DNA from: Hyphomicrobiales bacterium
GTDB taxonomy: Bacteria > Pseudomonadota > Alphaproteobacteria > Rhodobacterales > Rhodobacteraceae
Assembly: GCA_003558415.1 (NCBI GenBank)
Contig: PWLT01000458.1
Span: 1-11,979, forward strand
DNA: 11,979 nucleotides
Direction: 5' to 3'
The notes beneath the pieces are model-generated. The model made no database searches. It was not told the DNA's origin and saw nothing but the letters and a program-made list of their open reading frames with translations. This document shows positions 1,282-11,979 of this stretch, one piece after another (the stretch's first letter is position 1; every line of letters begins with the position of its first letter). A program made the position numbers and the translations under genes.

Positions 1282-2124
1282 TCAGCCAGCGCGGCCGCTC
1301 ACGCGCAATATTCCCTCGTTGTCGCGTACCCACAGATCGTAACCGCCATCCTCGCGCGGCTTGCCTTCAACATGCACGCGCTCGCCGCATAGCACCGGCT
1401 GCACACCGCGGAAGGAGAAGCTCGCAAGCCGGGCATCTGGAACCGCGGTGAGCAGATCGCGCAGCATCAGCGTGGCCGAAAGCTGCCCCTGCACCAGAAT
1501 GTCGGGGTACCCTTCCTGCGCGCGGGTATATTCGCGGTCATAATGAATGCGGTGGGCGTTGAAGGTCACCGCCGAGTAGCGAAACATCATCGCCTCGTCG
1601 ATCGTGTAGGCGCGGCTCCAGGCCGCCCCCTCCGGTGCGGGCTTGCCCGCCGGAGCGGGTTCATCCGCGCCGGGCAAATCGCGGTAGACCAGCGTCTGGG
1701 TCTCCTCCAGCAGCGGCGCCCCGTTCTTTGAATCACTGTAGGTATTGTCGAGTTTCACGAAGATCAGCGCGCCGCTCTTGCCCTCCTTGAGCGAGATGTC
1801 CGAAACCGTCGCCGTCTTGGTCACATGCTTGCCCAACACCAGGGGTGCGTGAAAGCGGATGTCGCTGGCGGCCCACATGCGCCGCGCCAGCGTGATCGGC
1901 GGCAGGAAGCCACCCCGGCGCGGATGGCCATCATCGCCCAGCTCGGACTGCACCACCATGGGTGGGAAATAGAGCCATTGCGCCAGTGGCGGCACCTCCT
2001 GCCCCTCGGTTGGGGCCTCGGTCGAATCCAGCGCCGCAAGCAGCCCGCGCACGGGCCACAGATCAAGTCGCTCGGTATGGGTTTCGCTGTATCCTTGCCA
2101 AGGGGCGTATCTGTCCATGTCCAT
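1282..2124 (-). CDS. FAS1-like/MaoC-type enoyl-CoA hydratase (HTD2 / mesaconyl-C4-CoA hydratase-like)
   Basis: This 280-residue protein has the double hot-dog layout of the HTD2/mesaconyl-C4-CoA hydratase group, which also includes itaconyl-CoA hydratase-like enzymes. These add water to, or remove it from, a CoA-bound enoyl acid in the cytoplasm. The degenerate N-terminal FAS1-like dehydratase domain covers roughly residues 10-150 (LYFPPMV, GGFLPPITLARRMWA, TQTLVYRDL). The catalytic hot-dog domain covers about 170-278 and contains FRYSAVTFNAHRIHYDREYT at 181-200, the family signature, with N189, H191, H194 and D196 as likely catalytic or structural residues. A disordered Pro/Ala linker (153-168) joins the two. 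The ATG at 2124 is favoured over a second Met two codons on, because AAGGAAG sits 7 nt upstream. It is divergent from the biotin carboxylase operon and shares its operator region. The exact substrate cannot be read from the sequence; an unsaturated C5 or similar dicarboxylyl-CoA would suit the family. Confidence 0.85.
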   Translation of the reverse strand: MDMDRYAPWQGYSETHTERLDLWPVRGLLAALDSTEAPTEGQEVPPLAQWLYFPPMVVQSELGDDGHPRRGGFLPPITLARRMWAASDIRFHAPLVLGKHVTKTATVSDISLKEGKSGALIFVKLDNTYSDSKNGAPLLEETQTLVYRDLPGADEPAPAGKPAPEGAAWSRAYTIDEAMMFRYSAVTFNAHRIHYDREYTRAQEGYPDILVQGQLSATLMLRDLLTAVPDARLASFSFRGVQPVLCGERVHVEGKPREDGGYDLWVRDNEGILRVSGRAG

Positions 2125-2170: not shown

Positions 2171-2190
2171 GGAGTTGCTATTGCAACTAC
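2171..2190. promoter_or_regulatory. Palindromic operator, copy A (between hydratase and BCCP genes)
   Basis: A 20-bp inverted repeat, GGAGTTGC-TATT-GCAACTAC, in which 7 of 8 half-site positions pair. The same palindrome (16 of 20 bases identical, ungapped) lies in the other divergent promoter region at 10482-10501. It is 46 bp from the hydratase start and 61 bp from the BCCP start, and its right half supplies the likely -35 box of the BCCP promoter, so a bound protein would probably repress. The likely ligand is the TrmB-type regulator encoded at 4576-5451 (inference from proximity). Confidence 0.65.
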
Positions 2191-2209
2191 TATTGACCCG
2201 CTCTATAGT
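2181..2209 (+). promoter_or_regulatory. Predicted sigma-70 promoter of the BCCP-BC-bioY operon
   Basis: TTGCAA at 2181-2186 and TATAGT at 2204-2209 are separated by 17 bp, the standard spacing. The first box lies inside operator copy A. Transcription would start near 2216, leaving a leader of about 36 nt before the GTG start at 2252. This is a visual match only. Confidence 0.5.
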
Positions 2210-2218
2210 GAAGGTCAA
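2193..2218. repeat. Second inverted repeat TTGACC-N14-GGTCAA over the -10 box
   Basis: TTGACC (2193-2198) and GGTCAA (2213-2218) form a perfect 6-bp inverted repeat whose 14-bp spacer contains the predicted -10 box and borders the start site. It could be a second protein-binding site used only on this promoter; I saw no copy near the transporter promoter. TTGACC could alternatively be an overlapping -35 box, but I see no good -10 at 17 bp from it. Confidence 0.35.
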
Positions 2219-2251
2219 CAGTGAGAGCGCCGTCAAGAGGAGGAAACCGCC

Positions 2252-2473
2252 GTGCCAATCGTTGACGTGAAGACGGAGATTACCGGAAACGTCTGGAAGA
2301 TCGAGGCCGAGCCGGGTCAGTCGATGGAAGAGGACGAACCCATCATGATCCTCGAATCGATGAAGATGGAAATTCCGGTGGCGGCGCCCGAGGACGGCAC
2401 GCTGATCGAGATTCTGGTCAAGGAAGGGGATACCGTCACCGAAGGCACGGTCGTCGCCCGGATCGAGGCCTGA
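2252..2473 (+). CDS. Stand-alone biotin carboxyl carrier protein (biotinyl domain)
   Basis: This 73-residue protein is a single biotinyl/lipoyl barrel. The biotinylation motif ESMKME spans residues 35-40 with K38 as the biotin attachment site, and the barrel is closed by VKEGDTVTEGTVVARIEA-type strands near the C-terminus. It carries the biotin that shuttles carboxylate from the biotin carboxylase encoded 12 nt downstream to a carboxyltransferase, probably the one at 7759-9294. It has no N-terminal extension or Ala/Pro linker, unlike the roughly 150-residue AccB of fatty-acid synthesis, so a catabolic carboxylase subunit is more likely. The start is GTG, chosen because AAGAGGAGG ends 8 nt upstream and the barrel begins immediately after. 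It is the first gene of a BCCP-BC-bioY operon. Confidence 0.9.
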   Translation: MPIVDVKTEITGNVWKIEAEPGQSMEEDEPIMILESMKMEIPVAAPEDGTLIEILVKEGDTVTEGTVVARIEA

Positions 2474-2485
2474 GAGGGCGAAGAC

Positions 2486-3847
2486 ATGAACAGACTTCTG
2501 GTCGCCAATCGGGGCGAGATCGCCCGGCGAATCTTCCGCTCGGCGCGCGAGTTGGGCATCGAGACGGTCGCCGTGTATTCCGAGGCCGACGCCGGCTCCG
2601 CCCATGTCGAGGAGGCCGACCAGGCCATCGCCATCGGTCCCGCCGCGGCGCGCGAGAGCTACCTCGACACCGCGAAGGTACTTGACGCCGCGCGGCGTGC
2701 CGGCGCGGATGCCATTCATCCCGGCTACGGGTTCCTCTCGGAGAATGCCGGATTCGCCGAGGCGGTAATCGCGGCAGGCATGATCTGGATCGGCCCCGCG
2801 CCCGAAACCCTGCGCGCCATGGGCGACAAGCAGCGCGCCCGCGATCTGGCCGAACAGGCCGGGGTGCCGGTGGTGCCGGGCAGCGCCCGCATAGAAACCG
2901 GCGCATCGGCGGATCTCGACGCGCTCGCCGAGGCGGTCGGTTACCCGCTGCTGGTCAAGGCCTCGGCCGGTGGCGGCGGCATCGGCATGCGCCGGGTCAA
3001 TGACGGCGCCAAACTGGCGCGCACGGTCGCCGACACCCAGTCCATGGCGGAGAAATCCTTTGGCGACGGCGCGGTGTTTCTGGAACGCTTCGTGCCCCGT
3101 GCGCGCCATGTCGAGATCCAGGTCTTTGGCTTCGGAAATGGCGAGGCGGTGCATCTCTTCGAGCGCGACTGCTCATTGCAGCGGCGTTTTCAGAAGGTGA
3201 TCGAGGAGGGCCCCGCGCCCGGGCTGCCCGATGGAGTGCGCCGGGACATGGCTGCCGCCGCCGTGGCGCTGTGCCGCGAGACCCGCTACAGCGGCGCCGG
3301 CACTGTCGAGTTCATCCTCGACACCGAAACACACGAGTTCTTCTTTCTGGAGATGAACACGCGCATCCAGGTGGAGCATCCGGTCACCGAGATGATCACC
3401 GGCACCGATCTGGTCGCCATGCAGATCGATTTCGCGCGCGCAAGGCTGAGCGGGATGGACCAGGACGCCCTGCGTGCCGAGGGTCACGCGGTGGAATGCC
3501 GACTATATGCCGAGAACCCCGCCAAGATGTTCATGCCCTCGCCCGGCCCGCTCACCGTGTTCGAGCTGCCCGAAGCATCGCCGGGCCTGCGCATCGATGC
3601 CGCCTATCGTCAGGGCGAGGAGGTCACCCCCTATTACGACCCGATGCTGGCCAAGATCATCGTTCACGGCCCCGACCGCGCTACAGCCTGCGCGCGCGCT
3701 GCCGAGGCGCTGCGCAGTGTGCGGGTTGAGGGGATCGCCACCAACCGCGATTTCCTTATCGCCTGTCTGGAAAGCGCGGGCTTTCGCGACGGCGACATCC
3801 ATACGAGCTTTATCGACGACAACCGAAAAGCGCTGCTTGCAGCCTGA
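2486..3847 (+). CDS. Biotin carboxylase subunit (AccC-like) of an acyl-CoA carboxylase
   Basis: This 453-residue enzyme uses ATP and bicarbonate to carboxylate biotin on the carrier protein. It has the biotin carboxylase N-terminal domain (1-112, with HPGYGFLSENA at 78-88), an ATP-grasp domain (about 113-310) and the C-terminal domain (about 335-445). Catalytic residues match those of E. coli AccC: K115 (MGDK), K158 before the glycine-rich loop SAGGGGIGMR, H208 (RHVEIQV), E275 (TVEF), E289 and R293 in EMNTRIQVEHPVTE, and R339 (ECRL). The length is that of a free biotin carboxylase. It lacks the BT and biotinyl domains fused to the alpha subunits of propionyl- and methylcrotonyl-CoA carboxylases, which agrees with the separate carrier gene just upstream. 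A GAGGGCGAAG leader precedes the ATG. It could be mistaken for housekeeping accC, but the neighbours point to a catabolic carboxylase. Confidence 0.92.
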   Translation: MNRLLVANRGEIARRIFRSARELGIETVAVYSEADAGSAHVEEADQAIAIGPAAARESYLDTAKVLDAARRAGADAIHPGYGFLSENAGFAEAVIAAGMIWIGPAPETLRAMGDKQRARDLAEQAGVPVVPGSARIETGASADLDALAEAVGYPLLVKASAGGGGIGMRRVNDGAKLARTVADTQSMAEKSFGDGAVFLERFVPRARHVEIQVFGFGNGEAVHLFERDCSLQRRFQKVIEEGPAPGLPDGVRRDMAAAAVALCRETRYSGAGTVEFILDTETHEFFFLEMNTRIQVEHPVTEMITGTDLVAMQIDFARARLSGMDQDALRAEGHAVECRLYAENPAKMFMPSPGPLTVFELPEASPGLRIDAAYRQGEEVTPYYDPMLAKIIVHGPDRATACARAAEALRSVRVEGIATNRDFLIACLESAGFRDGDIHTSFIDDNRKALLAA

Positions 3848-3866
3848 CATGCACAAGGAGACAGTC

Positions 3867-4448
3867 ATGAAACAGCAGGGCACCGACACGATCGTCAATG
3901 CCGCATGGGACGCTCGCGCCAGCACCCAACCGCTCTTGCGCGCCATCCTCGTGGTGTTGGCGGGTTCGGCCTTCATCGCGCTGAGCGCGCGGGTCCAGGT
4001 CCCGATGTGGCCCGTGCCGATGACCATGCAGACCTTCGCGGTGCTGCTCGTGGCACTGGCCTTCGGGGCGCGGCTCGCGGTGATCACCATAGCGGCTTAT
4101 CTCGCGCAGGGGGCAATGGGCCTGCCGGTCTTCGCCGGCGGTGGCGGGCTGCCCTATCTTGTCGGCCCGACGGCGGGCTACCTGTATGCCTTCCTCGCCG
4201 TGGCGCTGGTGGTAGGCCACCTGGGCGACCGCGGCTGGGGCCGTGGTTTCGCCGGCGCCTTCGCGGCCACGCTTGCGGGCAGCGTGCTGATCTATGCCAT
4301 CGGCGCAAGCTGGCTGGCAGGCTATGTCGGGGTCGAGCAGGCCGTGGCCCTGGGGGTTGCCCCCTTCGTGATCGGCGATCTGCTCAAGGCCGCGCTGGCG
4401 GCATTGCTGCTTCCGGCGGCCTGGAAGCTCCTGCGCACCGCGCAGTGA
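3867..4448 (+). CDS. bioY: BioY biotin transporter, S component
   Basis: This 193-residue integral membrane protein binds and imports biotin, either alone or with an ECF energising module. Hydrophobic segments lie at about 23-41, 55-68, 70-88, 96-117, 127-147 and 160-187. Family motifs are VPMWPVPMTMQTFAVLL (45-61) with the substrate-side PMTMQ, MGLPVFAGGGG (84-94) and GPTAGYLYAF (100-109). No bioM or bioN is visible, and several alphaproteobacterial BioY proteins are known to work alone. The ATG has AAGGAG 6 nt upstream, and the gene follows the biotin carboxylase stop by 19 nt, so it is co-transcribed with two biotin-dependent genes. Upstream in-frame starts at 3474 would lie inside the biotin carboxylase gene and are not used. 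A terminator follows at 4499-4533. Confidence 0.92.
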   Translation: MKQQGTDTIVNAAWDARASTQPLLRAILVVLAGSAFIALSARVQVPMWPVPMTMQTFAVLLVALAFGARLAVITIAAYLAQGAMGLPVFAGGGGLPYLVGPTAGYLYAFLAVALVVGHLGDRGWGRGFAGAFAATLAGSVLIYAIGASWLAGYVGVEQAVALGVAPFVIGDLLKAALAALLLPAAWKLLRTAQ

Positions 4449-4498
4449 CAAGACGGCGCGCCCGAACTCCGATGCCGGGTCTCCCAAAGCTCACCGAG

Positions 4499-4533
4499 AA
4501 GCCGCCGACGGGCATTTCGTCCGTCGGCGGCTT
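4499..4533 (+). terminator. Hairpin terminator after bioY
   Basis: AAGCCGCCGACGG and CCGTCGGCGGCTT form a perfect 13-bp stem around a 9-nt loop (4512-4520). The T run after the stem is short (TTT), so termination may be leaky and some transcript may read into the regulator gene, whose ribosome-binding site starts 27 nt downstream. Confidence 0.75.
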
Positions 4534-4575
4534 TGGCTATGGTCGCCGCGTATTGCTCCAGGAGGAGAAGGAAAA

Positions 4576-5451
4576 TTGAGTGGAAAACTTGCCGTCAATT
4601 CGGGCCTCGTTCCCGGCGACATTCTTGCCGGGCTGAAGCGCCTGGGATTCACCGATTATGAGGGCCGCATTTACATCCAGCTTCTCCGCCAGAACACCCC
4701 CAGCACCGCCTATGAAGTGTCCAAGAACGCCGCGGTCCCGCGACCCAATACCTACAACGCGCTCGAAAGCCTGGCCCAGCGCGGCGCGGTGCTGGCGGTC
4801 AGCGAAAACCCCAGCCGCTTCGTCGCTGCACCGCCGCAGGAACTATTCGAGAGCATCGCCCGCCAGACTGGCACGCTATGCGCCAATATCGGCGCGCAGC
4901 TGGCCGAAATGGCCCAGCCCGTCGACGACCAGCATGTCTGGACGCTGGCCGGCGATCTCGACGTCCATGACAAGATCGACGCGCTGATCCGCGATTGCGC
5001 GGATACGCTGATGATCAAGGCCCATGACGACATCCTGCGCCGCCACAAGCCGGCGCTGCGCGAGGCCGGCCAGCGCGGCGTGGAGATGCTGATCATTCTC
5101 TTCGGGCCCGACCCGGACGAGTTCACCTTCGGTCCGCGCTGCCGCACCTATATCCATGAAGGCAACGGCGTGCGCATGGGCTCCACCGACAACCTGTTCA
5201 CCATCGCCGCCGATCACCGCGAGATGGTTACCGCGAAGGTTGCCGATCAGGCCGTGGCCGTGCACACGCGCAACACGACCATCGTCAACCTCGCCGAATC
5301 GCTGGTGCGCCACGACTATTACATGGCCGAGGTATTCCTGAAGTTCGGCGATCAGATCGACGCGGCCTTCGGCCCCTATCTGCGCGATCTGAGGCTGGGA
5401 TGTTTCACCGAAGAACAGGCCGAAAGCTTCCGCCAGAAGACGGGGCTCTGA
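4576..5451 (+). CDS. TrmB-family transcriptional regulator
   Basis: This 291-residue protein has a TrmB-type winged helix at about 14-88. It includes LKRLGFTDYEGRIYIQLLRQ (20-39), a recognition-helix region VPRPNTYNALESLAQRGAV (54-72) and the wing residues up to 85. The C-terminal effector part (about 118-258) resembles the phospholipase-D-like sensor domain of TrmB proteins that bind sugars or other small ligands. A cysteine pair is not evident, so metal binding is unlikely. The start is TTG, chosen because the AGGAGGAG sequence lies about 8-10 nt upstream and the family N-terminus begins here; TTG suggests deliberately low translation. It sits between the two operons that share the palindrome at 2171 and 10482 and is the only regulator in the window, so it probably controls both. 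The ligand is unknown; a pathway acid or acyl-CoA is a guess. TrmB regulators are best known in archaea and less studied in proteobacteria. Confidence 0.85.
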   Translation: MSGKLAVNSGLVPGDILAGLKRLGFTDYEGRIYIQLLRQNTPSTAYEVSKNAAVPRPNTYNALESLAQRGAVLAVSENPSRFVAAPPQELFESIARQTGTLCANIGAQLAEMAQPVDDQHVWTLAGDLDVHDKIDALIRDCADTLMIKAHDDILRRHKPALREAGQRGVEMLIILFGPDPDEFTFGPRCRTYIHEGNGVRMGSTDNLFTIAADHREMVTAKVADQAVAVHTRNTTIVNLAESLVRHDYYMAEVFLKFGDQIDAAFGPYLRDLRLGCFTEEQAESFRQKTGL

Positions 5452-5494
5452 GCCCCCACAGGGGTCCGCCTGCGCGCGCCCGCAAATGGTAGCG

Positions 5495-5521
5495 CTTCGC
5501 CGGGACTGAGCCCCGGAGAAG
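5495..5521. terminator. Possible shared terminator between convergent genes
   Basis: CTTCGCCGGG and CCCGGAGAAG form a 10-bp stem with one mismatch and a 7-nt loop (5505-5511). It lies in the 95-bp gap between the convergent regulator and acyl-CoA synthetase genes, where a bidirectional terminator would be expected. There is no T run on either side, so intrinsic termination is doubtful. Confidence 0.35.
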
Positions 5522-5546
5522 GCGTGCGCAGACGGGGTGGGACGCC

Positions 5547-7748
5547 TCAGCCGCGCGCGGCGAGGCGGCGTTCGATCTGCCCCACCACGGCAAGCGCGCG
5601 CGCCATGGCGGGGATCTCGTCGAAGACGGGCACGCCGATCTCGCGCGCGCGGGCGCGGTACTGGCGCCGCGTCTCGTCCAGCTCGGCCGAGCCGTCGGTA
5701 CGCATCGCCAGCGCGAAATGGGCAACACCGGGGTATTTCTCCAGCGTCTGACGCACCACCTCGAAGAGGTTGCCAATGGGATCGACCGTGCCGCGACCCA
5801 CGAAGGCGGCAAGGTTGAGATGCATGGCGATGGCATCGGGGGCTGCGTGCTCGAAGACATGGTCGAGGATCTCGCCCGCGATCCAGCCCTCCTTTTCCTG
5901 AAGGGTCGCCACCGGCGTGTCGATGGGATTGGCCACGCTGGTGCCCGGGGGCAGGCCCATGCCCTCCAGCGCGTCGCGCGCCGCACCCTCGAAGGGCGCG
6001 ACCGTCAGCCCGTGATGGGCGAAGATGTCGGCGCCCAACACGCTGGAGCCGCCGCCATTGCCGAACAGCGTGACCTCCTGCGTGGGCTTTTCGGGGCGCA
6101 GCTGGAAATGCTGCAGCGCCAGCAGCGCGTCGATGAACTCGTCCACCGTGGTGGTCAGCGCCACCGGCAGTTGCGCGGCCAGCGCGTCCCAGGCGCGGTC
6201 GTCGCCCGCCAGCGCCCCGGTATGCGAGGCCGCCGCCGTGCGCCCGTATTCGGTGCGCCCGCCCTTGAGCACCACCACCGGCTTGGGCGCGGGGTGGCTG
6301 CGCAGCAGGTCGAAGAAGGCGCGCCCCTCACGGATATCCTCGATATAGAGGCCCAACGCGCGCGTCTGGGGGTCGTCGAAATAGTATTCGACCAGCTCAT
6401 GCGGCTTCACATCGGCGCTGTTGCCGATGGTCACCAGCCCGCTGTAGCGCAGTCCGCGCCACTGGCCGCGCTTGATGATGTCGGTGCTCAGCCCGCCCGA
6501 CTGCGAGATCACGCCGATATTTCCGACCTCCTTCGGCGCCCCCGCCGGAAAGGTCAGCCCACCGCGCGGCGAATAGGTGCCCAGGCAGTTCGGCCCCAGC
6601 ACGCGGATACCGGCCTTGCGCGCCCGCGCGACCAGATCAGCCTGCAGCGCGCGCCCCTCCTCGACCTCGCCAAAACCCGAGGAGATCACCTGCGCCACGC
6701 GTACCCGCCCGGCGCCGGCCTCGAGCGCGTCGGCAATGCGCTCGGCACCGATGGCGACATAGGCGTAATCCACCTTGTGCGGGGTCTCACCCAGCGAGGG
6801 ATAGGCCTTCAGCCCCTCGATCTCGTCGGCCTTGGGGTGGATGGGATAAATCTCTCCGGCATAGCCGAAATCCTTCAGCCGCCGGATGAAGGTGTTGGCG
6901 ATGGTCACACCCTTACCCGAGGCCCCGAGCACGGCGATGGTCTTCGGCTCGAAGAGCGGGCGGAATTCCTCCAGCGCCGGACGCGTTGCGGCCGGCGCCT
7001 CCGAGGTATCGGTTGCCTCGGCATCGGTGAGGATGAAGCGCGCATCGACCGCCACCGCCCCTTCCGGGCTCACGATCACCGGGTTGAGATCGGCCTCGGC
7101 GATGTCGTCCGCGTGGCGCATCAGGATGCCGTTCTCGCCACCGAGCGCGAGCATGGCGTCAACCAGCGCCGCCTCGTCCACCGCGGCCTCGCCGCGCGCG
7201 CCCTTGAGCAGCGCGTGGCCCTTGAGTTCGGCGAGCATCTCCTGCGCGGTGTCCCGGTCCACCGGGCAGATGCGAAAGGAGACATCCTTGAGGATCTCCA
7301 CGAAGATGCCGCCCAGCCCGACCATCAGCATCGGGCCGAATTGCGGATCGCGAAAACCGCCGATGACCACTTCGCGCCCGGCGGGGCTCATCTCTTCGAC
7401 CAGCCAGCCCTCGACATGGGCATCGCGGATCGCGGGTTTCGCGGCCATCTCCTCGATCGCCTCAGCCACAGCCATGCCGTCGGCCAGATTGAGCGCCACG
7501 CCGCCCGCGTCGGACTTGTGAAGGATCTCGGGCGAGACGACCTTGACCACGAAGGGGCCGCGCATCTGCGCAGCCACCTTGGCTCCGGCGCCGGCATCGG
7601 GCACCACCTGCGACCGCGGCGCACGCACGCCGTAAGCCTCCAGCAGTGCCTTGCCCGCCGCCTCGTCCAGCGCCCCGCGCCCCGCGCCGCGCGCCTCTTT
7701 CAGTATCGCGGCGGCCTTCGCGCCGGCGTCCTTGGCAATCATGTTCAT
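5547..7748 (-). CDS. ADP-forming acyl-CoA synthetase, beta-alpha fusion
   Basis: This 733-residue protein belongs to the NDP-forming acyl-CoA synthetase superfamily, which converts acid + CoA + ATP to acyl-CoA + ADP + phosphate through a phosphohistidine. An ATP-grasp (beta) domain comes first (about 20-240; VVKVVSPEILHKSDAGGVAL at 67-86, GPMLMVGLGGIFVEILKD at 138-155, ADLNPVIV at 219-226). It is followed by a CoA-binding Rossmann domain (about 262-355; IAVLGASGKG at 271-280), then two succinyl-CoA-ligase-like domains (VLGPNCLGTY at 383-392; VISQSGGLSTD at 413-423; ASHTGALAG at 507-515, with H509 as the likely phosphohistidine). This beta-alpha order is the reverse of the alpha-beta fusions common in this superfamily. 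The ATG at 7748 has GAGAGGGGAG just upstream and lies 10 nt after the carboxyltransferase stop, so the two are translationally close. It probably activates the imported acid; the substrate is unknown. Confidence 0.88.
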   Translation of the reverse strand: MNMIAKDAGAKAAAILKEARGAGRGALDEAAGKALLEAYGVRAPRSQVVPDAGAGAKVAAQMRGPFVVKVVSPEILHKSDAGGVALNLADGMAVAEAIEEMAAKPAIRDAHVEGWLVEEMSPAGREVVIGGFRDPQFGPMLMVGLGGIFVEILKDVSFRICPVDRDTAQEMLAELKGHALLKGARGEAAVDEAALVDAMLALGGENGILMRHADDIAEADLNPVIVSPEGAVAVDARFILTDAEATDTSEAPAATRPALEEFRPLFEPKTIAVLGASGKGVTIANTFIRRLKDFGYAGEIYPIHPKADEIEGLKAYPSLGETPHKVDYAYVAIGAERIADALEAGAGRVRVAQVISSGFGEVEEGRALQADLVARARKAGIRVLGPNCLGTYSPRGGLTFPAGAPKEVGNIGVISQSGGLSTDIIKRGQWRGLRYSGLVTIGNSADVKPHELVEYYFDDPQTRALGLYIEDIREGRAFFDLLRSHPAPKPVVVLKGGRTEYGRTAAASHTGALAGDDRAWDALAAQLPVALTTTVDEFIDALLALQHFQLRPEKPTQEVTLFGNGGGSSVLGADIFAHHGLTVAPFEGAARDALEGMGLPPGTSVANPIDTPVATLQEKEGWIAGEILDHVFEHAAPDAIAMHLNLAAFVGRGTVDPIGNLFEVVRQTLEKYPGVAHFALAMRTDGSAELDETRRQYRARAREIGVPVFDEIPAMARALAVVGQIERRLAARG

Positions 7749-7758
7749 GACTCCCCTC

Positions 7759-9294
7759 TCAATAGCTCGTGGGCCAGCTGCGCATCAGATGCTCACCGAT
7801 CCCGCCGGTGCGGCGGCGGCGATGAATATCGAACAGCCGGGTGATATAGGCGCGCGTCTCCTGCGGCTTGATCACGTCATGGGCCGAGAAGATCGTCGCC
7901 ATGTCCCAGATCTCGAGATCCTTCTGGATCTCGGCCAGTGCCTCTTCGAAGCCCTCATCGCCAGCGGTGAGGTTGTGAACGATGCTGGTGGCGAACACCG
8001 GATCCATGAAGGAGACCTCGGCCATCGGCCAGGCGATCATCGAATCGTTATGCGCGCCGCCGCCCATGGCGACATAGGCGCGCCCATAGGCCTTGCGGCA
8101 GATCACCGTGACCTGCGGCACCGTGGTCAGGCAGGTGGCGTTCATGAAGTTCATGATATGCCCCGGCGCGCCGCGGCGCTCGGCATCGGTGCCCACGACA
8201 AAACCCGGTGTGTCCATCAGCCGCACGATGGGAATGTTGAAGCTGTCGCACAGCACGGTGAAATCGATGATCTTGCGGCAGGCCTCTGCCGAGAGCGCGC
8301 CGCCCCCGACCTGCGGGTTGTTGGCGATCACGCCCACCACCTTGCCGTCGAGCCGCGCCAGCGCCACCACCGCGGATTTGCCGAAGCGCGGCTTGAGCTC
8401 GAAGATCGACCCGGTGTCAAAGATCACCTCCATGATCTTCTTCATGTTGTACACCTGCGTGCGCTTCTCCGGCATGATGTCGAGGATGCGCGCCTGATCT
8501 GCCTCCTGCCCCTCGGGCACCGGCGCCTCGGGCGGCAATTCGCGGTTGTGGCTGGGCATGTAGGACAGGAAGCGGCGGATCGCAGCCATCGCCTCGGCGT
8601 CGTCATCGACGAAATGATCGATGAGCCCGGTCTGCTCGGCATGCAGCCGCCAGCCACCCAGATCCTCGAGATCGACCTTCTCGCCGATGGCCATCGACAC
8701 CAGCCGTGGGCTGGAGACCGACATGATCGAGCCCTTCTTCATCACGGCAAAGTCGGCGCAGCAGCACAGCCAGGCGGAGGAGCCGAAGGAGGTGTCGAGC
8801 GCGGTCGCCACCCAGGGCGTGTCGCGCATGCGGCGAAACTGGGTGGTGTCATTGCCCAGCATGGTGCCCATGCCCTTGGAGCCCATCGCATCGGGAAGCC
8901 GCGCGCCAGTCGATTCGCCGACATGGACAAAGGGCATCCCGCGCTCGGTGCAGGTCTTGCGGATATAACCCATCTTCTTGGAGTTGGTGGCGCCCGTCGA
9001 GGCGCCCTTGGTGGTGAAATCGTTGACCACCACGCCCACATCGCGCCCGTCGATGCGGCCGAACCCCGTGATCTTGCCGTCGCGCGGGGTCTTGGCAGCC
9101 TCCTTCGCGGAATAGCTCGACCGGCCCAGCAGCCCGACTTCGAAGAAAGAGCCCTCGTCGACGAGCGCGTCGAGCCGCTCCTGTGCGTTGAGCTGGCCGT
9201 TATCGCGCCGGCGGGCGAGTTTTTCCTCGCCGCCCATTGCCTTCGCCTGTTTGCGCATCTCTTCCAGTTTCGCGAGCATGTCTTCATGCGCCAT
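7759..9294 (-). CDS. Acyl-CoA carboxylase carboxyltransferase (beta) subunit, divergent substrate pocket
   Basis: This 511-residue carboxyltransferase of the PccB/AccD5 type has both crotonase-like halves on one chain. It moves carboxylate from carrier-bound biotin to an acyl-CoA (or the reverse). N-half features are RRRDNGQLNAQERLDALVD (28-46), VHVGESTGARLPDA (123-136) and SPRLVSMAIGEKV (195-207), then GLIDHFVDDDAEA. C-half features are GVIANNPQVGGGALS (321-335), RLMDTPGFVVGTDAERRG (358-375), KAYGRAYVAMGGG (401-413), AWPMAEVSFMDP (421-432) and DVIKPQETR (473-481). Within the C-half, the position that in PccB/AccB enzymes is Asp or Ile (after GGAY) is V408, and the usual MGSK is MGGG. The substrate therefore cannot be called propionyl- or acetyl-CoA with confidence. 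Partners should be the BCCP and biotin carboxylase at 2252-3847. The ATG has GGAGG 8 nt upstream. It is the middle gene of the minus-strand operon. Confidence 0.9.
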   Translation of the reverse strand: MAHEDMLAKLEEMRKQAKAMGGEEKLARRRDNGQLNAQERLDALVDEGSFFEVGLLGRSSYSAKEAAKTPRDGKITGFGRIDGRDVGVVVNDFTTKGASTGATNSKKMGYIRKTCTERGMPFVHVGESTGARLPDAMGSKGMGTMLGNDTTQFRRMRDTPWVATALDTSFGSSAWLCCCADFAVMKKGSIMSVSSPRLVSMAIGEKVDLEDLGGWRLHAEQTGLIDHFVDDDAEAMAAIRRFLSYMPSHNRELPPEAPVPEGQEADQARILDIMPEKRTQVYNMKKIMEVIFDTGSIFELKPRFGKSAVVALARLDGKVVGVIANNPQVGGGALSAEACRKIIDFTVLCDSFNIPIVRLMDTPGFVVGTDAERRGAPGHIMNFMNATCLTTVPQVTVICRKAYGRAYVAMGGGAHNDSMIAWPMAEVSFMDPVFATSIVHNLTAGDEGFEEALAEIQKDLEIWDMATIFSAHDVIKPQETRAYITRLFDIHRRRRTGGIGEHLMRSWPTSY

Positions 9295-9316
9295 GTGGCA
9301 GTCCTCCGGTTATTCT

Positions 9317-10390
9317 TCAGGTGTAGGCGACGCGCTCGGCCGTGAGCCGCTCGATGGCGGCGCGATCGAGGCGGGGGCGGTAGCCGGCAGGAAGCCGGAT
9401 CGCGCCCTCGGTGAATTCGAGCGGGTTCTCGAACAGGCGGTCGCGGGGCTTGAGAAAGCCGTTGAACTCGCCGGCATTGTCGATCGTGGTGCGGGCGACG
9501 CAGGCTTCGAGCCAGCCGTGGATCTCGCTGCCCAGCCCGTCGCCGAGCACGGGCTCCATGCCATGCGCACGCACCGCCTCAAGCCCCTCGCGCAGCCGCC
9601 CCAGCCCGCCGAATCGCTTGAGCTTGAGCTTGCAAAAGCCCACGCCCGCGATTTCGCCCGCGCGCGCGATATCGTCGAGAGTGCAGATCGGCTCATAAAG
9701 CATCAGCGGCACCGGCGAGGCGGCCGCGACGGCGGCGTTGGCCTCCCAGTCATCGGCGTCGCAGGGCTGTTCGAACAGCTCGATCCCCTCGGGGGCCAGT
9801 GCTGCCGCGAATCGGCACGCATCCTCGCGCGAGAAGGCGCGATTGGCGTCGAGCCTGAGCGTCGCACGCCCGGACACGACCCGCTGAATGACCGCCAGGC
9901 GCGCCAGATCGGCATCGACATCCTTGCCGACCTTGACCTTGAAGGTGCGGAATCCGCGCGCGATTTCGACCTCGAGCTCGTCCTCTATGCCCTCGGGATC
10001 AGTGGCGTTGACCGGCGTGAGCAGCGGCAGGGTGCAATCCTCGGGGATATCGAGGATCGGATCCTGTGCGAGCACTTCAAGCGCCGTGACGAGGCTCGTC
10101 GCCGCCACCTTGCTTTCCGAAAAACGCGCCAGGGCAGCTGTGCGTGCAGCTTCGGCATCTCGGCCGATCGCGGCCTCCGCCTGCGCCGTCAGGAAAGCCC
10201 AGCCCCCTTCGCGCGTCTCGGCGCTCGAACCCGGCGAGACATGCGCATCGGCGAATCCAACGCGCCCGTCACTGTCCTCGACCTCCACCATGAAGGGCTC
10301 GAAAACCTCGAAGGTGCGGTAGGATAGCCGGTAAGGCCGCACCAGCGGCAAGGCCAGCCTGCGCAATGTCATGGATCTGATCTCGGCCAC
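9317..10390 (-). CDS. Enolase-superfamily enzyme (mandelate racemase/muconate lactonizing group)
   Basis: This 357-residue protein has the N-terminal capping domain (about 1-120) followed by the beta/alpha barrel. The catalytic framework is of the muconate-lactonizing subgroup: the KxK pair K151/K153 (TFKVKVG), metal ligands D181 (RLDANRAF), E207 (ELFEQP) and E233 (MLYEP), and the opposite lysine K256 in CKLKLKRFGG. Such enzymes abstract a proton alpha to a carboxylate and then racemise, epimerise, cyclo-isomerise or dehydrate. The residue at the third metal position is Glu rather than the Asp usual in lactonizing enzymes. The annotated start is GTG at 10390 with GGGAGG about 10 nt upstream; an ATG 18 codons earlier adds a basic, cysteine-containing stretch unlike the family and lacks a good ribosome-binding site. 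It is the first gene of the operon, 22 nt before the carboxyltransferase, and is divergent from the transporter. Its substrate is unknown, probably the acid taken up or its isomer. Confidence 0.85.
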   Translation of the reverse strand: MAEIRSMTLRRLALPLVRPYRLSYRTFEVFEPFMVEVEDSDGRVGFADAHVSPGSSAETREGGWAFLTAQAEAAIGRDAEAARTAALARFSESKVAATSLVTALEVLAQDPILDIPEDCTLPLLTPVNATDPEGIEDELEVEIARGFRTFKVKVGKDVDADLARLAVIQRVVSGRATLRLDANRAFSREDACRFAAALAPEGIELFEQPCDADDWEANAAVAAASPVPLMLYEPICTLDDIARAGEIAGVGFCKLKLKRFGGLGRLREGLEAVRAHGMEPVLGDGLGSEIHGWLEACVARTTIDNAGEFNGFLKPRDRLFENPLEFTEGAIRLPAGYRPRLDRAAIERLTAERVAYT

Positions 10391-10481
10391 GCGATGTTTC
10401 CCTCCCTTGCTGCACCGGCACCCAGCGCGGCGGTGGCGCCTCAACGCGCGACACGGGCCTGCTGCGCCAATGATGAAATTA

Positions 10482-10501
10482 GTAGTTGCTTCTGCTACTA
10501 C
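10482..10501. promoter_or_regulatory. Palindromic operator, copy B (between enolase-superfamily and tctC genes)
   Basis: GTAGTTGC-TTCT-GCTACTAC is a 20-bp inverted repeat with 7 of 8 half-site positions paired and 16 of 20 bases identical to copy A at 2171-2190. The exact half-site GTAGTTGC occurs here on the left and, inverted, on the right of copy A. It lies about 91 bp from the enolase-superfamily start and 84 bp from the tctC start. I saw no third copy in the window. Confidence 0.65.
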
Positions 10502-10514
10502 GTTTTCTTACTCT
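10486..10514 (+). promoter_or_regulatory. Possible promoter of the TTT transporter operon
   Basis: TTGCTT (10486-10491) and TACTCT (10509-10514) are 17 bp apart, and the first box again lies inside the palindrome. The match is moderate. It would give a leader of about 65 nt before tctC. The opposite promoter, for the enolase-superfamily operon, must also lie in 10391-10481, but I cannot pick it out. Confidence 0.3.
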
Positions 10515-10585
10515 TGCCACGCAGACGCCGGGTTTGCAAGTTTCGAAATGCCGCCCGGGTCGAACGCAAAACGGGAGGAACTACC

Positions 10586-11563
10586 ATGATGAACGCTAGA
10601 CTCGTCGCGGCAGCCGTGACTTCGGCGGTGGCGCTGGGCGCCGGTGCGGCGATGGCCCAGGATGCGGCAGACTGGCCGCAGGGCGATCTCAACTACATCC
10701 TGCATGTCAATCCGGGGGGGGCGACGGACGTGATGGCGCGGCGCCTTGCAGACGGCCTGCAGCGCGATCTTGGTGTCAATGTCGTCGTCGAGAACCAGCC
10801 GGGCGGCAGTGGTGCGCGCCAGATGGCACTGATGTCCATGGCTGAACCCGACGGGCAGACGCTGGGTTCGGTGACTGCCTCGCATCTGGGGATGTTCCTG
10901 CAGAATGAGGAATTCGACGTCGATTCGGCCGAATGGGCGTGCGGGCTGGTGCTCGACCCGTTCCTGCTGGCCGTATCCGCCGACAGCGACATCCACAGCC
11001 TCGACGATCTCGTCGAAATGGCGCAGGAGAATCCGGGCCAGATGTCCATCGCCGGCTTTGGCGAAGCCTCTGGCGGGCATGTCGGCTGGGCGATGTTCGA
11101 GGAAGCCGCCGGTATTGAGGGTGATATCAACTGGGTTCCCTATGACAGCGTCGGCGACGCGGTGACCGCCGCACTTGGCGGGCATAACGACATCGCCATC
11201 GCCTATGTCGGCCTCGTGCGTCAGCATGTCGAGGCGGGCAACATGCGCGTGATCGGCATTCAGTCCGACGAGCGTTCCGAAGCCTTCCCGGACGCGCCCA
11301 CCTATGGCGAAGCCGGCTATGACGTGGATACCACCTGGGCACAGTTCCGCGGCACGATCATGCCGGCCGGCACTCCGATCGAGCTTCAGGAGGCGCTGTG
11401 CGACGCGGTCGAGGCGGTTCTGCTGACCGACGAAATGCAGCAATACATCGCCGATTCCGAGCTGGTCTACGGATACATGGCGCCCGCCGAGTTCCGCGAA
11501 TTCGTCGAAGCGCAGGCCGAAGCCGCCGCCTACTGGGCCGAACGCCTCGAATCGATCGAGTGA
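10586..11563 (+). CDS. tctC: TctC/Bug-family periplasmic substrate-binding protein of a TTT transporter
   Basis: This 325-residue protein captures a carboxylate in the periplasm and delivers it to the TctA/TctB membrane unit. Residues 1-24 form a Sec signal peptide with basic MMNAR, a hydrophobic Ala/Val core and a likely cleavage after AMA. The Bug fold is marked by NPGGATDVMARRLADGL (42-58) and VVENQPGGSGARQM (67-80), which form ligand-contacting loops, and by FPDAPTYGEAGYDV (234-247), the usual C-terminal family signature. There are two cysteines (119 and 272), which could pair. The start is the first of two adjacent ATG codons, 7 nt after GGGAGGA. tctB follows after 24 nt. Bug proteins bind a wide range of carboxylates, so the ligand cannot be deduced. 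The gene is divergent from the enolase-superfamily operon and shares operator copy B with it. Confidence 0.9.
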   Translation: MMNARLVAAAVTSAVALGAGAAMAQDAADWPQGDLNYILHVNPGGATDVMARRLADGLQRDLGVNVVVENQPGGSGARQMALMSMAEPDGQTLGSVTASHLGMFLQNEEFDVDSAEWACGLVLDPFLLAVSADSDIHSLDDLVEMAQENPGQMSIAGFGEASGGHVGWAMFEEAAGIEGDINWVPYDSVGDAVTAALGGHNDIAIAYVGLVRQHVEAGNMRVIGIQSDERSEAFPDAPTYGEAGYDVDTTWAQFRGTIMPAGTPIELQEALCDAVEAVLLTDEMQQYIADSELVYGYMAPAEFREFVEAQAEAAAYWAERLESIE

Positions 11564-11587: not shown

Positions 11588-11979
11588 GTGAACGACGACC
11601 GTAATACCAAGACGCCAGCGCCTTCGGGCGCTGGCGCGTTCTATGCCCTCAAGCTGCCGGCGGTGGTGCTGGATCTCATTGTCTGCATCGCGTTGGGCGC
11701 GCTGGGCATCTGGTTCATCGTCGAGGGCAGGACGCTTCCCGATCCGCGCCGAATGATCGGACCGGGCACATTTCCGATGATCGCAGGCGCATTGCTTACG
11801 ACGCTGTGCATCGCGCAGGCCGTGGTATCCATTCGCGACCGCAAGACAGACTCGGCAGTACCCTTCAGCCGCCCGCTGGCACTTCCCTTCGCCATGGCGC
11901 TGATGCTGGCCTTTCCATTCGCGATGGACAGCTTCGGCTATTACCTCACGGCAGTGATCTGGGTGCCGGCCTTCGCCTG
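11588..11979 (+). CDS. tctB: TctB small membrane subunit of a TTT transporter (partial, runs off the window)
   Basis: The first 130 codons of a DUF1468/TctB protein are present. After a polar N-terminal tail of about 20 residues there is a membrane segment at about 23-48 (VVLDLIVCIALGALGIWFIV), then the family motif GPGTFPMIAGALLT (60-73) in the second segment, then a third (about 101-117), and the start of a fourth ending at the edge. The start is GTG at 11588 with GGGAG 7 nt upstream; the next in-frame starts lie within the first membrane segment, so this one is required. TctB supports the large TctA subunit, which should be encoded next, outside the window. A strong hairpin lies inside the first 20 codons (11613-11636). 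Confidence 0.85.
   Translation, partial: MNDDRNTKTPAPSGAGAFYALKLPAVVLDLIVCIALGALGIWFIVEGRTLPDPRRMIGPGTFPMIAGALLTTLCIAQAVVSIRDRKTDSAVPFSRPLALPFAMALMLAFPFAMDSFGYYLTAVIWVPAFA
11613..11636 (+). promoter_or_regulatory. cUUCGg-capped hairpin inside the start of tctB
   Basis: CGCCAGCGCC-TTCG-GGCGCTGGCG is a perfect 10-bp GC-rich stem closed by a C(UUCG)G tetraloop, the most stable common RNA tetraloop. It lies 50 nt past the tctC stop and 25 nt into tctB, in the variable N-terminal tail coding TPAPSGAG. It may protect the upstream tctC message from 3' exonucleases or slow expression of the membrane subunits, giving excess binding protein. Weak T content after the stem argues against full termination. 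Confidence 0.6.

Follow-up and report, generated by a model that had tools for sequence, protein, structure and literature searches.

The described systems closest to the regulator considered here are archaeal. TrmB of Pyrococcus furiosus and Thermococcus litoralis, a maltose regulator, has the operator TACT-N3-AGTA at the transcription factor B recognition element (BRE)/TATA box, and the motifs given for the family members TrmBL1/Tgr and haloarchaeal TrmB are TATCAC-N5-GTGATA and TACT-N7-8-GAGTA (PMC4158304). These archaeal proteins are described as activating or repressing by the position of the site relative to the promoter (PMC4158304, PMC10817205); the first source, a review, treats Archaea, and the word "proteobacteria" is absent from its main text. 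We have analyzed a stretch of 11,979 nucleotides (the window; positions 1 to 11,979 of contig PWLT01000458.1, Hyphomicrobiales bacterium assembly GCA_003558415.1, placed in the Rhodobacteraceae), in which a gene for a TrmB-family protein lies between two copies of a 20-bp palindrome. We consider it probable that this TrmB-family protein has its operators in the two palindromes: as a dimer, it would bind GTAGTWGC-N4-GCWACTAC and repress the uptake and coenzyme A (CoA)-dependent breakdown of an organic acid; the most likely overall description is that of a conserved operator of a TrmB-type regulator governing a local acid-utilization regulon.

The window protein shares with TrmB of P. furiosus and T. 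litoralis the winged helix-turn-helix, a long helix, the phospholipase-D-like effector domain, the conserved DNA-contacting tyrosine and, as proposed here, a palindromic operator at the promoter. It carries the TrmB DNA-binding domain PF01978 (64.3 bits vs. a cut-off of 25.6) as well as the TrmB effector domain PF11495, and its predicted overall fold is that of full-length TrmB. In contrast to the archaeal regulator, the window protein appears to be paired with GTAGTWGC-N4-GCWACTAC at a bacterial -35 box, and its predicted targets are acid and CoA genes instead of sugar genes. The window protein is also shorter (291 vs. 342 residues), and its alignment to 3qph spans chain residues 8-240 of 335, leaving the C-terminal part of the 3qph sugar-binding domain unaligned. 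It likewise differs from TrmBL1/Tgr and haloarchaeal TrmB, with their other motifs and sugar/gluconeogenesis regulons. The NCBIfam equivalogs for archaeal sugar-sensing TrmB/TrmBL1 scored 43.2-46.7 bits, far below their cut-offs of 500-650. By eye, with no scan run, none of the three archaeal motifs is present in the two window sites or in the consensus of 30 sites. Many phospholipase-D enzymes also appeared in the fold look-up of the regulator and were taken as sharing a common domain fold only.

Two palindromes flanking a TrmB-type gene

The elements on which the argument turns are as follows.
2171..2190, no strand: proposed operator 1, between the hydratase gene (minus) and the gene for biotin carboxyl carrier protein (BCCP; plus); window scan, conservation
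10482..10501, no strand: proposed operator 2, between the enolase-superfamily gene (minus) and tctC (plus); window scan, conservation
4576..5451, plus strand: TrmB-family regulator and proposed repressor, 291 amino acids, TTG start; Pfam, NCBIfam, fold comparison

An earlier note on this DNA, made from the letters, had described the two sites as gap-free matches and as inverted repeats, and both descriptions hold: they are identical at 16 of 20 positions, and in each palindrome 7 of the 8 positions of the 8-nucleotide arms are paired. It had also put each palindrome ahead of any other in its gap; this is true of site 2 and not clearly so of site 1, where an overlapping palindrome (2157-2176, in the gap 2125-2251) scores equally. 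At up to 3 mismatches, GTAGTTGC-N4-GCAACTAC occurs at exactly two places in the window, each with a single mismatch, vs. a mean of 0.01 places in 200 shuffled windows, none of which reached two. The draft genome (2,365,689 bp in 480 contigs, 75% complete) holds three such places in total. The one beyond the window (C218:5610, 2 mismatches) lies 178 bp upstream of a putative RsmB-like open reading frame (ORF), and it looks unrelated.

Recurrence of the site at orthologous loci

A regulator-based scan of genome contigs gave 10 distinct loci, with the closest regulator relatives coming from Rhodobacteraceae. Orthologous loci keep the palindrome, contrary to one refuting outcome set in the earlier note, and carry it upstream of both the BCCP gene and the enolase-superfamily gene: it was found in all 6 loci holding the DNA upstream of BCCP (L005, L008, L009, L011, L012 and L013, with 3 mismatches in L011) and in 7/7 loci upstream of the enolase-superfamily gene (L005-L010, L013). 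Locus L004, ending short of both promoters, was counted for neither; L008 and L009 represent a single species, and three pairs (L013/L041, L010/L042, L012/L060) are apparently identical records. Because the sites underlying a logo or position weight matrix were chosen by matching, its strength is not independent evidence.

A motif-blind ranking agrees, in which each window 20-mer in the 250 bp before a gene was compared with the same 250 bp in the other loci. Ahead of BCCP, the top 20-mer of 231 starts at 2173 (mean of 17.0/20 matches in 7 loci; median of all 11.6), and the reported site, 2 bases away, ranks third. Ahead of the enolase-superfamily gene, the reported site itself is first of 231 (16.0/20 in 8 loci; median 11.9), the 250 bp in Sulfitobacter being too short to include it. 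The far edges in an earlier version of this test had been set with the site known, and the uniform 250-bp version repeats its result.

Association of the site with the regulator

Among 394 family genomes, the regulator is present in 10 (E <= 1e-20) and a near-perfect site in 14, with both in 7; this co-occurrence gives a Fisher p of 1.4e-9, or 2.8e-8 excluding the source genome, with relatedness not corrected. The palindrome is not frequent elsewhere either, a second outcome that would have counted against the earlier note: in 12 other TrmB genomes (48.6 Mb), 11 of 14 sites with up to 2 mismatches lie within 25 kb of a TrmB gene, a limit set after the places had been seen, one of the 11 being about 21 kb off. 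From the genome-level co-occurrence, together with TrmB loci that keep the site beside other metabolic genes, the 4576-5451 product is most likely the cognate regulator of these sites. Open frames running through the site were tried as an intergenic test and set aside as uninformative, since the proposed operators too sit in long open frames in this GC-rich DNA.

Overlap with promoters

The promoters predicted at the two operators are listed below.
2181..2186, plus strand: -35 box TTGCAA of the BCCP promoter, inside operator 1; promoter scan, orthologous promoters
2204..2209, plus strand: -10 box TATAGT of the BCCP promoter, 17-bp spacer; promoter scan, orthologous promoters
2189..2218, minus strand: predicted leftward (hydratase) promoter TTGACC-18-AATAGT, its -10 overlapping the end of operator 1; promoter scan, orthologous promoters
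10486..10514, plus strand: candidate tctC promoter TTGCTT-17-TACTCT (weak), overlapping operator 2; read by eye

The proposal that each palindrome overlaps a -35 box was borne out for operator 1, where the orthologous BCCP promoters agree, and the overlap at operator 2 is weak. The promoter scan returned two sigma-70-like promoters in the window, both touching operator 1, and missed the candidate tctC promoter. As its count was no higher than that of shuffles (mean 1.4), support for the BCCP promoter comes from the orthologous promoters, 6 of 7 of which (window included) have the downstream half-site as the -35 box (TTGCAA, once TTACAA), followed by a 17-bp spacer and a -10 box; none of 300 shuffled flanks gave an equally good -10 column. 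The Sulfitobacter BCCP promoter does not match this layout. In the leftward promoter, a -10 box (AATAGT or GATAGT) lies at the operator edge in 3/3 loci and TTGACC is the -35 box in 2 of the 3; no hydratase relative was found in L005 in this analysis. On the enolase side, a conserved A/T-rich -10-like stretch directly follows the site (0/300 shuffles equally good).

Just past operator 2 on the tctC side (10514-10540), TTGCCA- and TTGCA-like words stand about 20 bp apart, with similar words in L005, L006, L007, L008, L010 and L013; these may belong to the enolase-side promoter or form another site. Between bioY and trmB, a strong hairpin (4500-4532) has just a short run of T after it. It is possibly a weak terminator or attenuator ahead of the regulator gene, and was not among the results of a terminator scan of the window.

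TrmB loci with other neighbors

The site is also found beside other genes. In a scan of the flanks of 27 TrmB relatives from outside the window, a site with up to 3 mismatches lay in a promoter region in 16, and 3 had a degenerate copy only. In L047, the site lies between TrmB and a TctC gene whose product is only ~30% identical to that of the window, and in L048 a site with 3 mismatches has the same position; in L068, a Cupriavidus plasmid with a TrmB of 33% identity, it lies between RraA-like and TrmB genes. In these three loci, and in degenerate form in L070, it falls within TrmB's own promoter region, with differing neighbor genes. Elsewhere, it precedes an operon of CoA ester lyase and hydratase genes (L012). 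In genome G109, it lies ahead of a hydantoinase-like gene adjoining TrmB (L049) and, on another contig, 432 bp ahead of a gene for a CoA ester lyase (L050). L043 and L044 have it ahead of a short-chain dehydrogenase/reductase gene and, with 3 mismatches, ahead of putative epimerase and alcohol dehydrogenase ORFs. On L065, a predicted conjugative Sulfitobacter plasmid, there is a site before BCCP and two (up to 2 mismatches) before tctC. Its region 15674-16946 places a methionine adenosyltransferase gene within the enolase-side operon and has three operator-like sites (16866, 16892, 16927) in a single gap.

For degenerate copies, a weight matrix from 21 sites was applied, with 20 random sequences per locus as control. 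Beating all 20 in each case were degenerate copies with most of GTAGT-N10-ACTAC retained, one about 20 bp before the TrmB gene of L070 (TrmB 30% identity) and one about 67 bp before the annotated PrpD-type start in L067 (TrmB 37%) and the near-identical L061; L069 and L070 were covered for ~3.5 kb each. L067 (10001-18484) is the Paracoccus versutus plasmid pTAV3, where TrmB sits beside a cluster of tripartite tricarboxylate transporter (TTT), FAD oxidoreductase, PrpF and PrpD genes, possibly a tricarboxylate relative of the regulon. We would tentatively propose, at somewhat less than even confidence, that GTAGT-N10-ACTAC is an old DNA code common to a large part of the TrmB family in Proteobacteria, in the Alpha- and Betaproteobacteria and also outside them, for regulators that would sense organic acids or their CoA esters instead of sugars. 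In this view, regulator, operator and often a TTT transporter would form one cassette, spread by horizontal transfer, to which different acid pathways have been joined; in the window, this would be a pathway that includes a biotin-dependent carboxylase and an unassigned member of the enolase superfamily.

A repressor model and its alternatives

Building on the computed sites, their conservation, the TrmB co-occurrence, the overlap with the BCCP promoter and the predicted fold, we infer dimer binding, repression, an inducer, a substrate and control of each unit, with the four units (hydratase; BCCP-biotin carboxylase-bioY; enolase-superfamily/carboxyltransferase/acyl-CoA synthetase; TTT transporter) assigned from position. 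In this model, a TrmB dimer would read the two inverted half-sites GTAGTWGC via its winged helix-turn-helix. On operator 1, it would mask the -35 box of the BCCP-biotin carboxylase-bioY promoter and, on the hydratase side, also cover the start region of the leftward promoter; on operator 2, it would block the divergent promoters of the enolase-superfamily operon and the TTT transporter. The imported acid, or its CoA ester, may then occupy the phospholipase-D-like effector domain, whereupon the repressor would be released.

That TrmB binds these sites and instead activates, or activates one promoter while repressing the other, is unlikely without being far-fetched, given that both modes are described for archaeal TrmB proteins, depending on where the site lies (PMC4158304, PMC10817205), and that the enolase-side promoter has no recognizable -35 box. 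However, with the operator centered near -36 for BCCP and near +1 for the leftward promoter, as estimated from the predicted boxes, the arrangement fits steric blocking over one activating contact and favors a blocking repressor; repression is also suited by the coincidence of operator 1 with the BCCP -35 box, and the BCCP promoter appears serviceable unaided. We regard as improbable the notion that another regulator encoded elsewhere uses the palindrome, TrmB being a mere neighbor. Adjacency alone is indeed no proof of cognate binding, and among the 394 genomes 7 have the site without TrmB and 3 TrmB without the site, but the genome-level co-occurrence, the clustering of sites near TrmB and the presence of sites where TrmB itself has its promoter region, amid differing genes (L047, L048, L068, degenerate L070) speak against it. 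An inverted repeat could also form a stem and act as RNA (hairpin or attenuator), or be a chance repeat, which we find hardly credible: transcription of BCCP is predicted to start downstream of operator 1, and over 240 arm positions in 30 sites there were 45 one-sided deviations vs. 3 two-sided (2 still paired), so that the half-sites vary independently, a pattern of DNA recognition and not of compensating stems. Chance is further opposed by the window shuffles, the co-occurrence, the clustering near TrmB and the motif-blind conservation.

Several observations count against a TrmB repressor acting at these operators. Loci retrieved via TrmB contain it by construction, hence only the genome-level counts test the link, and these include the 7 site-only genomes, in which no relative of the window genes was found within the 3-kb surroundings. 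The trmB gene of the window has no site directly upstream in the scan at up to 3 mismatches. As to the promoters, the upstream half-site holds a -35-like word whose score is slightly above that of the chosen one, but this word needs a 23-bp spacer; on the tctC side, 15/300 shuffles gave an equally good downstream -10 box; and no clear -35 box emerged on the enolase side in the orthologous comparison, leaving both of these promoters weakly defined. Eight of the 27 TrmB relatives have no promoter-region site: the short L004, and the distant L051, L052, L062, L063, L064 and L069, where none was found; in L066 (Bradyrhizobium, TrmB 41%) the best match (3 mismatches) lies inside an ABC-transporter gene and, like weaker matches before CoA transferase and racemase genes, falls within the random range.

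The TrmB family and its regulatory logic are known; what would be new are the operator, the bacterial promoter setting and the non-sugar targets. Among the matches listed in our literature search (titles and abstract starts, with subscription papers mostly outside its reach), the TrmB studies were archaeal and there was no proteobacterial TrmB operator; two matches concerned a cyclodextrin named TRMB and were set aside. A 2016 review by Kim and co-workers reportedly covers TrmB in prokaryotes, to go by its title. With a conserved operator, the DNA targets of TrmB proteins in Proteobacteria could be predicted and their regulons with them, and there would be a handle on an unassigned acid pathway using a biotin-dependent carboxylase; once its ligand is found, the regulator-operator pair could be used as an inducible sensor.

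The gene cluster and its pathway

The earlier note was right in naming the TrmB-type gene as the only regulator gene of the window: a Pfam scan of the 12 window ORFs gave 4576-5451 alone as a regulator. The other genes of the cluster are as follows.
1282..2124, minus strand: MaoC-type hydratase, nearest solved relative itaconyl-CoA hydratase; Pfam, structure match
2252..2473, plus strand: BCCP; Pfam, NCBIfam
2486..3847, plus strand: biotin carboxylase; Pfam, NCBIfam
3867..4448, plus strand: BioY biotin transporter; Pfam
5547..7748, minus strand: ADP-forming-type acyl-CoA synthetase; Pfam, NCBIfam
7759..9294, minus strand: carboxyltransferase, PccB/MmdA-like; Pfam, NCBIfam, further hits
9317..10390, minus strand: enolase-superfamily (muconate-lactonizing-like) enzyme; Pfam, NCBIfam, further hits
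10586..11563, plus strand: TctC, substrate-binding protein of the TTT; Pfam
11588..11979, plus strand: TctB, running off the window end; Pfam

The closest solved structure to the hydratase is itaconyl-CoA hydratase 8khg (E 2.4e-58), while the hits of the carboxyltransferase and the enolase-superfamily enzyme are generic and do not fix the pathway. Judged by abstracts, the Pseudomonas itaconate operons (ict-ich-ccl) resemble this system in the hydratase relative and in genes for HpcH/HpaI-type CoA ester lyases, which lie close to the operator in L012, L050 and L065; such lyase-type genes occur in the relatives only, the window stopping in tctB. Unlike those operons, the window adds an ADP-forming-type ligase, a biotin-dependent carboxylase, an enolase-superfamily enzyme and a TTT transporter, and the Pfam scan of its ORFs, ending within tctB, gave no CoA transferase. 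The trans-aconitate system of Bacillus is under a LysR regulator, and TrmB is absent from the passages that describe it.

The enolase-superfamily enzyme is rare. Of 198 sampled family genomes, the source genome was the only one with a match at E <= 1e-60, and a search of 72,556 plasmid records (E <= 1e-40) gave a single one, a plasmid which, located via that enzyme, also has TrmB and the sites. The sample apparently did not contain G199, G216 and G253, since these carry the enzyme and yet gave no listed match. At the left end of the window, there is a weak phage-integrase-like fragment (56-523), marginally below the Pfam cut-off, and a phage-tail/Rcc01698-like fragment (481-1164); these phage-like fragments (56-1164) suggest that the gene cluster adjoins the remains of a mobile element.
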